From Alphaproteobacteria bacterium (GTDB lineage Bacteria; Pseudomonadota; Alphaproteobacteria; JABAAW01; JAHZMA01): a stretch of 64,000 bases of DNA. Below, in pieces: positions 4,653 to 61,735 of this stretch. Position 1 is the first letter of the stretch. Each line of letters starts with the position of its first letter. Both the position numbers and the translations under genes were made by a program. The stretch is from positions 1-64,000 of the forward strand of contig JAHZMA010000086.1 of the NCBI GenBank assembly GCA_022599575.1. Direction: 5' to 3'. Below the pieces are notes generated by a model that was not told the origin of the DNA, did not search any database, and saw only the letters and a program-made list of their open reading frames with translations.

Positions 4653-6560
4653 ATGTCAAAAGAAATGTTAATCGATGCCTCTCATTCGGAGGAGACGCGA
4701 GTTGCTGTTATCGAAAATGGCGAACTTGTAGAATATCAACATGAAATCAGCAATAAATTAGCCCTTAAAGGCAATATTTATCTTGCCAAAGTAATAAGAG
4801 TAGAGCCGTCGCTACAGGCGGCTTTTGTGGATTATGGCGGTAATCGCGATGGTTTTTTAGGCTTTAGCGATATTCACCCGGATTATTATAAAATCCCAGT
4901 GAATGACCGCAAGGAATTGCTCAATAGTGTCGGCAAAAAAGACGATGAAGATTTGGACGAAATGGCTGAAAATGCTACGGGTGATTTTGACTTGGCAGCA
5001 GTGCTAGGGGCAAAACGCTTTCGGTTAAAGCATCGCTATAAAATTCAAGAAGTTATTAAGCGCGGGCAGGTGATGCTGGTGCAGGCGGTAAAAGAAGAAC
5101 GTGGCAATAAGGGCGCGGCAATGACCACCTTTATCTCGCTTGCGGGGCGCTATTGCGTTTTGATGCCCAATAGTGGCAAGGGCGGTGGTATTTCACGCAG
5201 AATTAGTGATGATGCCGATAGAGACCGTTTGAAAGATGTTGTGGAGAGCTTGGATATTCCTGATTCGATGGCGCTGATTTTACGCACCGCAGGTGCTGGG
5301 CGCACAAAAGCAGAAATTAAGCGCGATTATGGTTATTTAAGCACTTTATGGGATAATATTCGGCAAAAAACAATCGATTCGCAAGCACCAGCTTTGGTGA
5401 ATGAGGATGCAACATTGCTGTGGCATAGTATCCGCGATATTTACGATAAAGACACGGATAAAATCATTATTTCTGGTGATGAAGCATTACAAAAAGCGCG
5501 CGACTATATGAAACATTTGGTGCCTACCCATGTCAAGCGCATTACATCTTATGGCGATAAAGAAGCCATGCCGCTTTTTCAAAAAAAAGATGTAGAAGCA
5601 CTGATTGCCAGTATTTACTCGCCTAATGTGAATTTGCCTTCGGGCGGTTATATCGTGATTGAGCCCACCGAAGCGATGGTATCGATTGATGTCAATTCAG
5701 GGCGGGCAACGCAAGAAAGAAACATTGAAGACACTGCTTTTAGCACCAATATGGAAGCGGCAGTTGAGGTTGCGCGGCAATTAAGGTTGCGTGATTTATC
5801 AGGCCTGATTGTGATTGATTTCATTGATATGGAAGATAGGCGCAATAATCACGCGCTAGAGCGGCATTTTAAGGAAGCATTGCGAAAAGATAGGGCGCGT
5901 ATGCATATCAACCGTATCAGCTCGCTAGGGCTTCTGGAAATGACGCGACAAAGGTTAAATCCTTCTATTACAGAGGTTACAAGCAAACCATGCGCCCATT
6001 GCTATGGCACTGGTAAAGTGCTAGGCATTGATGCCACTGCTTTAATGGTGATGCGAAATATTGAAGAAGAAGCCATTAAAGGCAAGGGCAAAGTAGCAGT
6101 GATGAGTGCTTTGGTATCATTGGAAGTGGCGGTTTATATTTTCAATATCAAACGGCAAAAATTGCAGGAAATCGAAACATCGAATCAGTTGAGTATCACG
6201 ATTGATCCAGACCAATCCTTACCGATTGCAGGATTAAAATTATATACGACAGCGATTATCGAAGATGGTGAGATTGTAGAATTATCAGTTGATAATTATG
6301 AAGAATTATTCAATAATTATGATGGGGCGAAGCCAAAAATTTCAAGAAGGTCGCGTGGTGGTAATCGTGGTAGCAGGAATCAAAGAGATAAAGATTATTC
6401 AGATGATGATGATGCGCGTGATACGGCCAATGACAATCAAGGACGGCAAAGGGGCGCAAGTTCAGGGCGTCAGCCAAGCAGAAACCCTCGTGGTTCTAAT
6501 AAGGCGGTGGTAAGTGAGGCGCAGAAGAAAAAAGGTCTGTTATGGCGGATATTGGGTTAA
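4653..6560 (+). CDS. rne: ribonuclease E/G family protein
   Basis: MLIDASHSEETRVAVIENGELVEY..., IYLAKVIRVEPSLQAAFVDYG, CAHCYGTG zinc link. Likely start is the internal ATG at 4653. Confidence 0.93.
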   Translation: MSKEMLIDASHSEETRVAVIENGELVEYQHEISNKLALKGNIYLAKVIRVEPSLQAAFVDYGGNRDGFLGFSDIHPDYYKIPVNDRKELLNSVGKKDDEDLDEMAENATGDFDLAAVLGAKRFRLKHRYKIQEVIKRGQVMLVQAVKEERGNKGAAMTTFISLAGRYCVLMPNSGKGGGISRRISDDADRDRLKDVVESLDIPDSMALILRTAGAGRTKAEIKRDYGYLSTLWDNIRQKTIDSQAPALVNEDATLLWHSIRDIYDKDTDKIIISGDEALQKARDYMKHLVPTHVKRITSYGDKEAMPLFQKKDVEALIASIYSPNVNLPSGGYIVIEPTEAMVSIDVNSGRATQERNIEDTAFSTNMEAAVEVARQLRLRDLSGLIVIDFIDMEDRRNNHALERHFKEALRKDRARMHINRISSLGLLEMTRQRLNPSITEVTSKPCAHCYGTGKVLGIDATALMVMRNIEEEAIKGKGKVAVMSALVSLEVAVYIFNIKRQKLQEIETSNQLSITIDPDQSLPIAGLKLYTTAIIEDGEIVELSVDNYEELFNNYDGAKPKISRRSRGGNRGSRNQRDKDYSDDDDARDTANDNQGRQRGASSGRQPSRNPRGSNKAVVSEAQKKKGLLWRILG

Positions 6561-6572
6561 TTAATATAGCGA

Positions 6573-6881
6573 TTAACTTTGCGCGCTAAACCCCTGTTTG
6601 ATACGAATCTGGGTGATGTAATCTTCACCCAAAAATGCGTTGATACGTGCCATAATATCATCTCGATGATATTCTAATTCGGTGGCACAGCTTCTATCAG
6701 CCGATATGGTAAGGCAACGTTGATTTTGCTTTTTGAAAAAAGTAATTTTATCCAGCCTGCAAGATGCGCTGTAATCGTCGCCAACAAAATCTTGCCAATG
6801 GGTTATCAACAGGCGGTGCTTTTTATCACCGCCTAATTTTTTAATTTTTGGCGTAATGCTATAAGAGATATGTTTCAGCAT
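6573..6881 (-). CDS. DUF721/DciA-like protein
   Basis: HWQDFVGDDYSASCRLDKITFFKK...LTISADRSCATELEYHRDDIMARINAFLGEDYITQIRIKQ; divergent from mutY. Confidence 0.75.
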   Translation of the reverse strand: MLKHISYSITPKIKKLGGDKKHRLLITHWQDFVGDDYSASCRLDKITFFKKQNQRCLTISADRSCATELEYHRDDIMARINAFLGEDYITQIRIKQGFSAQS

Positions 6882-43672: not shown

Positions 43673-45222
43673 GCAATCCTTACTATATCACCACCCCAAT
43701 CTATTACGTCAATGATAAGCCGCATATTGGCCATGCCTATACCTCGCTTGCATGTGATGTAATGTGCCGCTTCCAAAAATTGGCAAGGCATGACACTTAT
43801 TTTTTGACTGGCACTGATGAGCATGGTCAGAAAATTGAACAGGCGGCAGCTAAAAACAACATTACTCCGCAACAGCTTGTTGATAGGTTTTCCCAAAATT
43901 TCAAGTGCTTAGCGAAGATATTTAACATTGAACATGATGATTTTATCCGCACCACCGAACCGCGCCATAAGCAAGCAGTGCAGTTATTTTGGCAGAGATT
44001 GCAGGAAAGGCAAGCGATTTATCTGGATAAATATAGCGGTTGGTATGCCGTACGTGACGAGGCTTTTTACACTGATAAGCAAATTGAGACCACCGATAAG
44101 GGTGAGAAAGTGGCGATTGCCAGCGGTGCACCAGTGGAATGGGTGGAAGAGGAGAGTTATTTTTTCCGCTTGAGCGATTATCAGGAGCGGTTACTGCAAT
44201 ATTATCAAAATAATCCCGATTTTATCATGCCCAGCACAAGGCGTAACGAGGTGACAAGCTTTGTAAAATCAGGCTTGAAAGATTTATCAATCTCGCGCAC
44301 GTCATTTTCATGGGGCGTGCCTGTGCCGAATGATGATAAACATATCATGTATGTCTGGCTTGATGCTTTATTTAATTATGTCAGCGCGCTAGGTTATGGC
44401 ACTGATGATGATGCGAATTATCAACGTTATTGGCCTGCCAATTTGCATATGGTCGGCAAAGATATTGTGATTTTTCATGCGGTGTATTGGCCTGCCATGC
44501 TGATGGCGGCTGAATTGCCCCTGCCAAAACGCATTTTCGCACATGGTTGGTGGACGAATGAGGGGCAGAAAATCTCCAAATCACTTGGCAATGTGATTGA
44601 CCCTTTGCAATTGCTAGAAACATATGGGCTAGACCAAACGCGTTATTTTCTGATGCGTGAGGTATCTTTTGGGCAAGATGGTGATTTTTCGCATGAAGCG
44701 ATGGTGCGCCGTAGCAATAGCGACCTTGCCAATGATTTGGGCAATTTATGTCAACGCAGTCTCACCATGCTGGTAAAACATTGCGATAGCGAAATAAAAA
44801 TCGGTGATATTGGTGATGATGTGCTTGATAATGCGCTATTAGAACGAGCGCACAACTTATATCAAGCGGTTTATGAAGAGATGCAGGAACAAGCCTTTCA
44901 TAAAGCATTGGCAACAATCTTTGCTATGGTGAGCGAAACCAACCGTTACATTGATTGCAAAGCGCCATGGGTATTGCGTAAAACCGACCTTGAACGCATG
45001 CAACAGGTGCTTTCAATCATTGCTGAGATTATCAGGCGGGTGGCAATATTATTGCAACCCTTCATGCCCGATGCGGCTGGTAAAATATTAGATATGCTGA
45101 ATATCGCGCCCGATGCACGTGATTTTACAGCCTTTGATGAACAGCTAGCTGACGGGCATAGAATCAATCCGCCCGTGATTATTTTCCCGCGATTCGAGGC
45201 TGAAAATGCTCCAACTGAATGA
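43669..45222 (+). CDS. metG: methionyl-tRNA synthetase
   Basis: YYITTPIYYVNDKPHIGHAYTSLACDV, FLTGTDEHGQKI, KISKSLGNVIDP. Confidence 0.97.
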   Translation: MSNPYYITTPIYYVNDKPHIGHAYTSLACDVMCRFQKLARHDTYFLTGTDEHGQKIEQAAAKNNITPQQLVDRFSQNFKCLAKIFNIEHDDFIRTTEPRHKQAVQLFWQRLQERQAIYLDKYSGWYAVRDEAFYTDKQIETTDKGEKVAIASGAPVEWVEEESYFFRLSDYQERLLQYYQNNPDFIMPSTRRNEVTSFVKSGLKDLSISRTSFSWGVPVPNDDKHIMYVWLDALFNYVSALGYGTDDDANYQRYWPANLHMVGKDIVIFHAVYWPAMLMAAELPLPKRIFAHGWWTNEGQKISKSLGNVIDPLQLLETYGLDQTRYFLMREVSFGQDGDFSHEAMVRRSNSDLANDLGNLCQRSLTMLVKHCDSEIKIGDIGDDVLDNALLERAHNLYQAVYEEMQEQAFHKALATIFAMVSETNRYIDCKAPWVLRKTDLERMQQVLSIIAEIIRRVAILLQPFMPDAAGKILDMLNIAPDARDFTAFDEQLADGHRINPPVIIFPRFEAENAPTE

Positions 45223-46078
45223 TAGTCCCAAGCTGATAGATAGTCCCAAGCTAATAGATAGTCCCAAGCTAATAGATAGTCATTGCCATCTTGATTATTA
45301 TCACGATTCTGCCGAGACCGAAGCAGTGATTGCCCGCGCCTTTGCGGCTGATATTGGCATTATGCTATCAATCAGCGTTACATTGGGCAAGCACCCGAAT
45401 ATCATGCAGATTGTAGAAAAACATGATGATATTTACGCATCGGTGGGCTTGCATCCGTGCCATGTGCAAGATGAAGAGCTGAGCAGCAGTGCCGATTTAA
45501 TTGCCATTGCCGCCCATAAAAAGGTGATTGCGATTGGTGAAAGTGGGCTAGATTATTTCAAAAAACCTGTAGATGAAGCGCGCCAAAAGCAATCTTTTGC
45601 CGAACATATTAAAGCGGCACAACAAATGGGTTTGCCACTGATTGTGCATAACCGCGCTGCTGATGATGATGTGATGACTATGCTAGAACAAGCCTATAAA
45701 ACCAAAGCCTTTCCATGTATCCTACATTGTTTTGCCGCCTCCGAACAAATGATGAAGCGGGCGGTGGCATTAGGGTTTTATATCTCGTTTTCAGGCATTA
45801 TCACTTTCAAAAATAACGATGAATTACGACATATCGCAGCCCAAGTGCCACAAAATTTACTGCTGATTGAAACTGATTCACCTTATTTGGCACCGCAAGC
45901 CATGCGTGGTAAACGCAACGAACCGCAATATATTCATCACACGGTGGAAATGCTTGCCGCACAACATGGTATGAGTAAGCTTGAGATGGTGGCGATAACA
46001 TCAGCGAATTTTTTACATTTGATGCGTAAAATTCCACAAAACCTATATCAGAATATCAGAGGCAGTGATGCCGCTTGA
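45206..46078 (+). CDS. tatD: TatD-family hydrolase
   Basis: LIDSHCHLDYY, ASVGLHPCHVQD, AIGESGLDYF, ETDSPYLAPQAMRGKRNEP. Confidence 0.93.
   Translation: MLQLNDSPKLIDSPKLIDSPKLIDSHCHLDYYHDSAETEAVIARAFAADIGIMLSISVTLGKHPNIMQIVEKHDDIYASVGLHPCHVQDEELSSSADLIAIAAHKKVIAIGESGLDYFKKPVDEARQKQSFAEHIKAAQQMGLPLIVHNRAADDDVMTMLEQAYKTKAFPCILHCFAASEQMMKRAVALGFYISFSGIITFKNNDELRHIAAQVPQNLLLIETDSPYLAPQAMRGKRNEPQYIHHTVEMLAAQHGMSKLEMVAITSANFLHLMRKIPQNLYQNIRGSDAA
45221..45274 (+). repeat. 18-bp tandem repeat x3 inside tatD (DSPKLI x3)
   Basis: GATAGTCCCAAGCTGATA, GATAGTCCCAAGCTAATA, GATAGTCCCAAGCTAATA, then truncated GATAGTC. Confidence 0.97.
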
Positions 46079-58748: not shown

Positions 58749-59648
58749 ATGTTAATGAAATTTTTTGGTAGTGCACGCATTGATTTTATGCGACATAAGA
58801 CGATGCTATTCGGTGCATCAATTGCATTTGTGGTGATATCGCTGGTGATGTTTATCGCGCAAGGGCTAAATCTGGGCATCGATTTTAAGGGCGGGGTGTT
58901 GATTGAAACGCAAATGACCGAAGATGTTCGCATCAGCGATATTCGCGGTAAATTATCCGATTTAGATATTGGCAATATCAATATTCAAGAATTTGGACGT
59001 TCAGACATATTTTTGCTACGTTTGCAAAGTCCTGAAGGTGGCGCCAAAGAGCAACAAGAGATGATTACAAGGATTAAGAATATTTTAGGCGATGATGTGG
59101 TAGAATATCGGCGCACAGAATCGGTAGGCCCTACATTTTCTACTGAATTACGCAATAGTGCTTTATTGGCGGTAGGGCTGACATTATTAGGCATTTTCAT
59201 CTATATCTGGTTTCGGTTTGAATGGCAATTTGGCTTAGGTGCGGTGTTGGCATTGATGCATGATATTATCTTCACCATCGGCTTATTTAGCTTTTTTCAG
59301 CTTGAAGTGAGTGTGGCAACAGTAGCAGCGGTGCTGACCATTGCTGGCTATTCCATCAATGATACGGTGGTAATCTATGATAGGGTGCGTGAAAACTTAC
59401 GAAAATATAAAAATTTACCGCTTGATGAGGTATATAATTTATCGCTGAATCAAACGCTATCGCGCACATTAATGACCAGCCTAACCACTTTATTAGCACT
59501 ATTGGCGCTATTTATATTTGGTGGAACTGTGGTTCGCGAGTTTATTTTGCCGCTAATCTGGGGCATTTTAATTGGCACATATTCTTCAACAGGCTTTGCT
59601 GTGCCATTTGTGCATTATTTTCCACCTCATAGCGGTGATACTGAATAG
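58749..59648 (+). CDS. secF: protein translocase subunit SecF
   Basis: GLNLGIDFKGGVLIE, VGPTFSTELRNSALLAVGLTL, TIAGYSINDTVVIYDRVREN. Confidence 0.97.
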   Translation: MLMKFFGSARIDFMRHKTMLFGASIAFVVISLVMFIAQGLNLGIDFKGGVLIETQMTEDVRISDIRGKLSDLDIGNINIQEFGRSDIFLLRLQSPEGGAKEQQEMITRIKNILGDDVVEYRRTESVGPTFSTELRNSALLAVGLTLLGIFIYIWFRFEWQFGLGAVLALMHDIIFTIGLFSFFQLEVSVATVAAVLTIAGYSINDTVVIYDRVRENLRKYKNLPLDEVYNLSLNQTLSRTLMTSLTTLLALLALFIFGGTVVREFILPLIWGILIGTYSSTGFAVPFVHYFPPHSGDTE

Positions 59649-59871: not shown

Positions 59872-60454
59872 GGAATATCGACTTCATAATAGAAAATATA
59901 AAAAAAACAATATGTTACCCGAATAAACAAGATATGTGGTAATTCATAACTACATATGCTGATATTTTTACATTATCCGCCATGTTAATTTAATAATTTA
60001 TCCGAATGCGACAAACTGAGTTACGTAAAAATATCGCTATCATCGGTATAAAACGGCTTCAATTCGGCAAAAATACATTGCTTAACTTCACATTAGCTTG
60101 ATAAGTAATTGTATTATAACATTATTACTTTGAATAAACTGGTTTAAGCAGATTAACAAATATTAAATTCAGTTTAAGTTGGCAATATCATCCAAGATTG
60201 CGAAACTTGCCTGTCAGGCTATTATTAGGCTGGCATCAGTACGTATATGTGATGTTGCATTTGAAAATAAGATTGATTATTCAGCAGTTTGCTACATAAA
60301 CATTGCATGAAAACAGGATAATATAACCAATGAGATAGGGCGCGGGGCGTAAAAAAATAATGCATTATTGCGACAAAAACAGCAGTTCTTATGCTAAAAA
60401 CATAAATATCATTATTGCAAAATTCACATGCCGCTTTTAATAGTTTGGATTAAA

Positions 60455-60604: not shown

Positions 60605-60632
60605 ATTTTCCATAATATAAATTATGCGAATA
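60605..60632 (-). other. dif: candidate XerC/XerD recombination site (dif-like)
   Basis: Minus strand TATTCGCATAA-TTTATA-TTATGGAAAAT; 22/28 matches to E. coli dif GGTGCGCATAATGTATATTATGTTAAAT (11-6-11 layout), in a convergent ORF-free gap. Confidence 0.65.
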
Positions 60633-60760
60633 AATTTGCACATTAACTTCTGCAACCCTCTGCATTAACTTTGTAGATTGTTGCTGATGCAAGCTGTTCA
60701 AAAACATACGCGAAAGACGCGCAAATGATAAAAATTCAAAACCATTACAGTCGTAATTTG

Positions 60761-60771
60761 ACTAAATATAG
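60761..60771. repeat. dyad-motif repeat ACTAAATATAG (copy 1)
   Basis: Within near-palindrome TTGACTA-AATA-TAGGCAA. Confidence 0.6.
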
Positions 60772-60865
60772 GCAATTAGTGTGGTATCGGATGCGAAATG
60801 AGATATAGGTATTTTCCCTATTTTATGGACTAATAGCGGTTATTCACTAGTTTATGGGTAAATAC

Positions 60866-60876
60866 ACTAAATATAG
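60866..60876. repeat. dyad-motif repeat ACTAAATATAG (copy 2)
   Basis: Within CACTA-AATA-TAGTCAA; exactly 105 bp after copy 1. Confidence 0.6.
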
Positions 60877-60958
60877 TCAAATTAGGCGAATATATATCTA
60901 TATCTATGCGCTATTTTATGCCGTGCCTGCCATATTAACTCACCAGTGGCACGCCGCC

Positions 60959-60969
60959 ACTAGATATAG
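60959..60969. repeat. dyad-motif repeat ACTAGATATAG (copy 3)
   Basis: Within perfect palindrome CACTA-GATA-TAGTG (60958-60971). Confidence 0.6.
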
Positions 60970-61168
60970 TGAAACATGGCCATCGGCAAAATTATCATTA
61001 AATAACTCTATATAATACCTATATGTCAGTCTATTTTACGTTTTATCACTGGTTAAAGCTGTCAAAAAATGGCTGATTTTGTGCAAAAAAATAGCGAAAT
61101 TTGCCAAGTTTCATCAAAATTTACGTAAAATTCTCTATATTTATTTCTTTTTATTCTGCCATCACAGA

Positions 61169-61735
61169 TTATTGCCGATAAAGCGGATGTAAGCGATGAA
61201 GCGCAGCAGAGATTGATTGTAAATCACCCTTGTGTGCCTGCTTAAATGTCTCGTAAAATGCCATCAATGATGCTTGCTCAGCCTGTTGTTGCGCTTCTAT
61301 AATGCCACTTATTGTGCCGATAACATGGATTTGATAGCCATCGCCATAGATAAAATCAAAAATAATTTTCGCCCTTGCAGTGTGATAATCACTGGTTATC
61401 ACCGCAATAGCCCGATTTTGGGACTGCATTTTATCATAAATTTGGCGCGAAAAAAACGCATCGCCCACCGTATCACGCGATTCTTCATTGGCAATAACCG
61501 CATTATCCGTATCATCATCGGAGAGATTGTGGGTAGAAATGAGGTAATTTTTCATGCCTTGCGCGAGCGAGATACTGGTATCATCGCGATAAGCCCAGCC
61601 CATCACCATAATTCGCGTTGTTAGCCCATTGTAATAGAGGTGCGCCGCTTTATCTAACCGTGCCTTTGTTTGGGCATCAGGCATGCCCTGCACGTCTATT
61701 TCATGCCCTAGCACGATAGCAATATCATATAGCAT
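61169..61735 (-). CDS. YdcF/DUF218-family protein
   Basis: AIVLGHEI...ARLDKAAHLYYNGLTTRIMVMGW...ANEESRDTVGDAFFSRQI...AVITSDYHTARAKIIF. Confidence 0.85.
   Translation of the reverse strand: MLYDIAIVLGHEIDVQGMPDAQTKARLDKAAHLYYNGLTTRIMVMGWAYRDDTSISLAQGMKNYLISTHNLSDDDTDNAVIANEESRDTVGDAFFSRQIYDKMQSQNRAIAVITSDYHTARAKIIFDFIYGDGYQIHVIGTISGIIEAQQQAEQASLMAFYETFKQAHKGDLQSISAALHRLHPLYRQ

Follow-up and report, generated by a model that had tools for sequence, protein, structure and literature searches.

Locus organization

The window, which is the whole stretch of DNA that was analysed (64,000 nucleotides of an alphaproteobacterial draft genome), contains two convergent genes, secF and a DUF218 (YdcF-like) gene, separated by an ORF-poor gap of 1520 bp with a G+C content of 31%. 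A dif site lies in this gap. The stretch from dif to the 3' end of the DUF218 gene comprises 535 bp of non-coding DNA and contains three copies of the motif ACTARATATAG, all within 210 bp. In agreement with the preliminary description, which had seen no gene start nearby, no ORF with credible family support begins in the gap. The features are summarized in Table 1.

Table 1. Features of the secF-DUF218 gap and its neighbouring genes
Feature	Position	Strand	Description
secF	58749-59648	+	left neighbour, reads toward dif
dif	60605-60632	-	XerC arm TATTCGCATAA, centre TTTATA, XerD arm TTATGGAAAAT, read on the - strand
Terminator-like hairpin	60707-60723	- (DUF218-gene strand)	between dyads and dif; weak, 1 found against 0.7 expected
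Dyad copy 1	60761-60772	+	TTGACTA-AATA-TAGGCAA; 18-mer 60758-60775
Dyad copy 2	60866-60877	+	CACTA-AATA-TAGTCAA; 18-mer 60863-60880
Dyad copy 3	60959-60970	+	CACTA-GATA-TAGTG; 18-mer 60956-60973
ATATAG/CTATAT hexamers (n=8)	60766-61140	60766, 60803, 60871, 60964 +; 60898, 61008, 61019, 61135 -	about ten times expectation
DUF218 (YdcF-like) gene	61169-61735	-	right neighbour, reads toward dif

Replication terminus

The dif site has the 28-bp arrangement of XerC arm, centre and XerD arm that is expected of a chromosomal dif. Its sequence, CGCATAATTTATATTATGGAAAA, is present in one copy, and a second dif was not found in the genome. Cumulative GC skew reaches its maximum at 60 kb, and the polarity of GGGNAGGG, the E. 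coli KOPS consensus, flips at dif (5:0 on the left, 1:6 on the right), so that the sequence points to dif from both sides. On the basis of the single-copy dif, the skew peak and the convergence of GGGNAGGG, the region is the replication terminus. A matching dif, in the same orientation, lies just past the end of secF in three genomes of a sister family, the SecF proteins of which are 51-53% identical. With four genomes from two families showing this arrangement, the site previously called dif-like is a real dif, and the terminus location supposed for it is borne out by the turn in GC skew and the polarity flip. The same dif pattern is single-copy in 78 of 337 alphaproteobacterial genomes.

The order secF-dif is conserved with the same relative orientation in two families of the order, at a SecF identity of about 52%; in this order, the terminus has a conserved arrangement with dif directly downstream of secF. 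To the right of dif, a 16-kb stretch (G000:C77 80001-96000; L149, L150) has a GC skew opposite to that of its surroundings, as after a local inversion. Besides dif itself, the gap contains XerC-arm-like half sites at 59915, 59998 and 60882, which match in 9-10 of 11 bases. Such matches are slightly in excess, with a count, dif included, that was reached in 6 of 500 shuffles; XerD-arm half sites in the gap show no excess over shuffles.

Structure of the dyad copies

The three exact matches to ACTARATATAG that had been reported were recovered at 60761-60771, 60866-60876 and 60959-60969, all on the + strand and at intervals of 105 bp and then 93 bp, together with the near-match CTATATTTATT at 61135 (1 mismatch). 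Each dyad is imperfect, as 5/7, 5/7 and 6/7 pairs of the respective 14-mers are complementary. The arms of dyads 1 and 3 are imperfect, and the RATA centre has one orientation in all three. The preliminary description had placed the copies on the same face of the helix, ten turns apart; this holds for copies 1 and 2 (105 bp) and fails for copies 2 and 3, which are 8.9 turns apart, so that helical phasing provides no evidence. Phasing counted from dif (14.1, 24.1 and 33.0 turns at 10.5 bp) was set aside, since the sites are too few and the helical repeat is adjustable.

Dyads may also reflect an RNA feature. The DUF218 transcript, on the - strand, would then cross the dyads, which could be hairpins of its 3' untranslated region or of a small RNA ending at the stem 60723-60707 before dif. 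Folding of the - strand beats that of shuffled sequences (z -2.7 for 60740-61000; z -3.0 and -2.9 for two sub-stretches), and one terminator-like site lies on that strand just ahead of dif. However, hairpins arise automatically from dyads, the terminator count is at chance level, promoters are not in excess with none near on the - strand, and no Rfam match above threshold was obtained. An RNA feature is accordingly considered unlikely.

Statistical assessment of the cluster

A simple count gives three copies against an expectation of 0.00, a value that is post hoc, as the same copies had served to define the motif. For an unbiased statistic, all possible triples of similar dyads within a 220-bp span were scored, whatever their sequence, and the highest score was compared with those of dinucleotide shuffles. 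The ACTARATATAG trio is the top dyad triple of the gap under this statistic. For the 1520-bp gap the observed score was reached by 23, 17 and 3 of 1000 shuffles with 12-mers, 14-mers and 18-mers, respectively, and for the 535-bp stretch by 5, 2 and 0 of 2000. In 459 kb of the genome, 23 further intergenic regions measuring 300 bp or more all score lower than the gap, which is also longer than any of them; the 535-bp part alone, no longer than several of these regions, gives identical scores. The hexamer ATATAG/CTATAT occurs 8 times in the 535-bp stretch against 0.8 expected, and any equally extreme hexamer was seen in 3 of 2000 shuffles. As plain repeats, with dyad form and proximity ignored, the copies are unremarkable (matched in 14 of 60 shuffles). 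The cluster is thus somewhat beyond chance in the shuffle tests. There is modest evidence that the cluster is a non-random feature, graded so because the spot was chosen by eye from 64 kb.

Among the plain three-copy repeats detected in the window, the strongest is located elsewhere, at 44081-45600, and consists of three near-identical copies of ATAGTCCCAAGCTAATAG.

Genome-wide distribution

The genome searched is a 2.31 Mb draft in 127 contigs that is 94.6% complete. The genome-wide count of ACTARATATAG proposed in the preliminary description gave the three copies beside dif and no others in 2,306,684 bases. For the extended 18-mer with up to 3 mismatches, 24 matches were found genome-wide and 23 for the reversed control, so that there is no excess over the control elsewhere in the genome; the best three matches outside the gap (2 mismatches) all lie within long ORFs.

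This distribution bears on the possible origin of the stretch as the remnant of a small mobile element, either MITE-like, with terminal inverted repeats flanked by TA, or as the operator array of a dif-integrated element. The sequences TAATTTGACTAAATATAG and CTAAATATAGTCAAATTA at the ends of copies 1 and 2 (60754-60771 and 60867-60884) are complementary at 16 of 18 positions (89%) and lie 95 bp apart, and the XerC-arm-like half site at 60882, TTAGGCGAATA, would fit an element integrated at dif. Such an origin is nevertheless quite unlikely. The stretch is without a second copy in 459 kb, a fifth of the genome, although a draft can lose multi-copy repeats; beyond the three copies the genome lacks the exact 11-mer, no phage or plasmid DNA matched, and copy 3 is left unexplained. 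Thus neither the further copies that mark a MITE (in 459 kb) nor the flanking second dif of a dif-integrated element was found.

Occurrence in other genomes

The motif is absent from the dif gaps of the three sister-family genomes, which are distant (SecF about 52% identical), and from 26 other alphaproteobacterial dif regions, likewise of distant genomes. Dyad clusters at dif as a general feature of the class were not found. Closer relatives were recovered neither with a scan for the motif pair nor with the SecF N-terminus as query in the genome collection, and none was listed in the same genus or family; querying viral contigs with the DUF218 protein also gave no relatives. A loose motif-pair pattern had 53 matches in viral contigs, which, given so short and AT-rich a pattern, were regarded as background.

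Repeats of other kinds were observed in the same gap of two sister-family genomes. Between secF and dif, genome G003 (C365 62764-63000; L088 1114-1391) carries about 8 tandem 35-bp dyad repeats, GGACGCGCGTTACAGGCAACGCGC, of which, allowing up to 3 mismatches, the gap has six copies and the rest of that genome a single one. Genome G002 (L087 ~800-845) has four 14-bp tandem repeats, CCAAGATTTTTACT, on the side of dif that faces secF, at a distance of some 230-275 bp.

Interpretation of the cluster

The locus is described as a genome-unique dyad cluster that adjoins a well-supported dif, is modestly beyond chance and has a putative functional role. We tentatively favour its reading as a small cluster of putative sites for one dimeric, sequence-specific DNA-binding protein beside dif at the terminus, because the dyads measure 14-18 bp, have no gene start close by and occur only in the vicinity of dif. 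A protein dimer would occupy each dyad through the arms (TTG)ACTA and TAGT(CAA), which enclose a 4-bp asymmetric centre. With dimers on two or three of the dyads, at distances of 93-105 bp from one another, a local nucleoprotein complex would assemble 148-346 bp away from the dif centre, and this complex could mark or tether dif or be accessory to Xer/FtsK recombination.

Nearly as likely is chance or a neutral short duplication, in which an AT-rich, weakly constrained gap of 1.5 kb has come to hold three similar imperfect dyads with nothing bound to them. Consistent with this, shuffles readily match the copies as plain repeats, p for the whole gap is only 0.003-0.023, the motif is missing from the sister-family dif gaps, and the unrelated tandem repeats in that gap of G002 and G003 indicate that repeats arise freely there. 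Against it, the 535-bp stretch was equalled by only 0-5 of 2000 shuffles, stands out from the other intergenic regions in the set of 24 and holds an excess of ATATAG. If chance were the explanation, the locus would be a cautionary case of a self-defined motif that appears far more significant than is warranted. As a docking cluster for a dimeric protein, unique in the genome and less than 350 bp from dif, it would offer a small, testable DNA target, and little is known of how the terminus is recognized and held in bacteria without MatP.

Comparison with known terminus systems

The roles first proposed for the motif were matS-like or fork-trap-like, and the terminus location and the dyad form agree with either. 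The 13-bp matS dyad recurs at scattered positions throughout the Ter domain, and RTP sites are imperfect dyads. As in the enterobacterial MatP/matS system, dyad sites are present in the terminus region; a matS-like role, however, needs MatP and sites dispersed over the terminus domain, whereas here there is one cluster of three with a different sequence and no dispersed copies. MatP (PF06303) had no match in the genome (94.6% complete), with a positive control in E. coli. The cluster shares the terminus location with Tus-Ter and RTP-Ter, and its dyads are imperfect, as those of RTP are. For a fork trap, the terminus must be flanked on either side by polar sites, and a Tus- or RTP-like protein is required, but all three sites share one orientation and one side of dif, with no opposed sites flanking the terminus; Tus and RTP (PF05472, PF02334) gave no match in the genome, with positive controls in E. 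coli and B. subtilis. Neither role is upheld, and a system of either type is highly improbable.

The accessory sequences of plasmid Xer sites such as cer and psi are protein sites that lie to one side of the Xer site, no more than a few hundred bp away, and the candidate protein sites next to dif are similarly placed. The motif has no resemblance to the ArgR box; the chromosomal dif of E. coli is not known to require accessory sequences.

MerR dimers generally use dyad operators. One candidate binder of the dyads is a MerR-family protein of 145 residues (MerR_1, E 6.6e-22), the gene of which (L151:6017-6454, - strand) lies directly downstream of the IHF-alpha gene (6447-6767, - strand) at about 110.0-110.5 kb of C77, the contig that also carries dif some 50 kb away. 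No motif copy was found near this ihfA-merR operon. Homologues of ZapT were recognised by their position next to ihfA, and in Caulobacter ZapT connects the terminus to the Z-ring (PMC7188993). As in the Caulobacter system, an alphaproteobacterium without MatP has a MerR gene directly after ihfA and putative sites in the terminus region. In contrast, the sites of Caulobacter ZapT are spread over about 0.9 Mb and fall for the most part within ORFs, and the protein lacks a consensus site and is of low specificity in vitro (PMC7188993), whereas the putative sites described here form a tight, non-coding cluster with a consensus. That a ZapT-type protein of the MerR family, or some other dimeric protein, uses the dyads to tether dif itself to the divisome without MatP has a slim chance of being correct. 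If it were true, the terminus would be marked by one dif-adjacent cluster and not by sites dispersed over a macrodomain.

A literature search on the letters of the motif returned apparently nothing on such an element; the motif string occurs in the flank of the Helicobacter-type dif of Arcobacter given in a paper on Xer.
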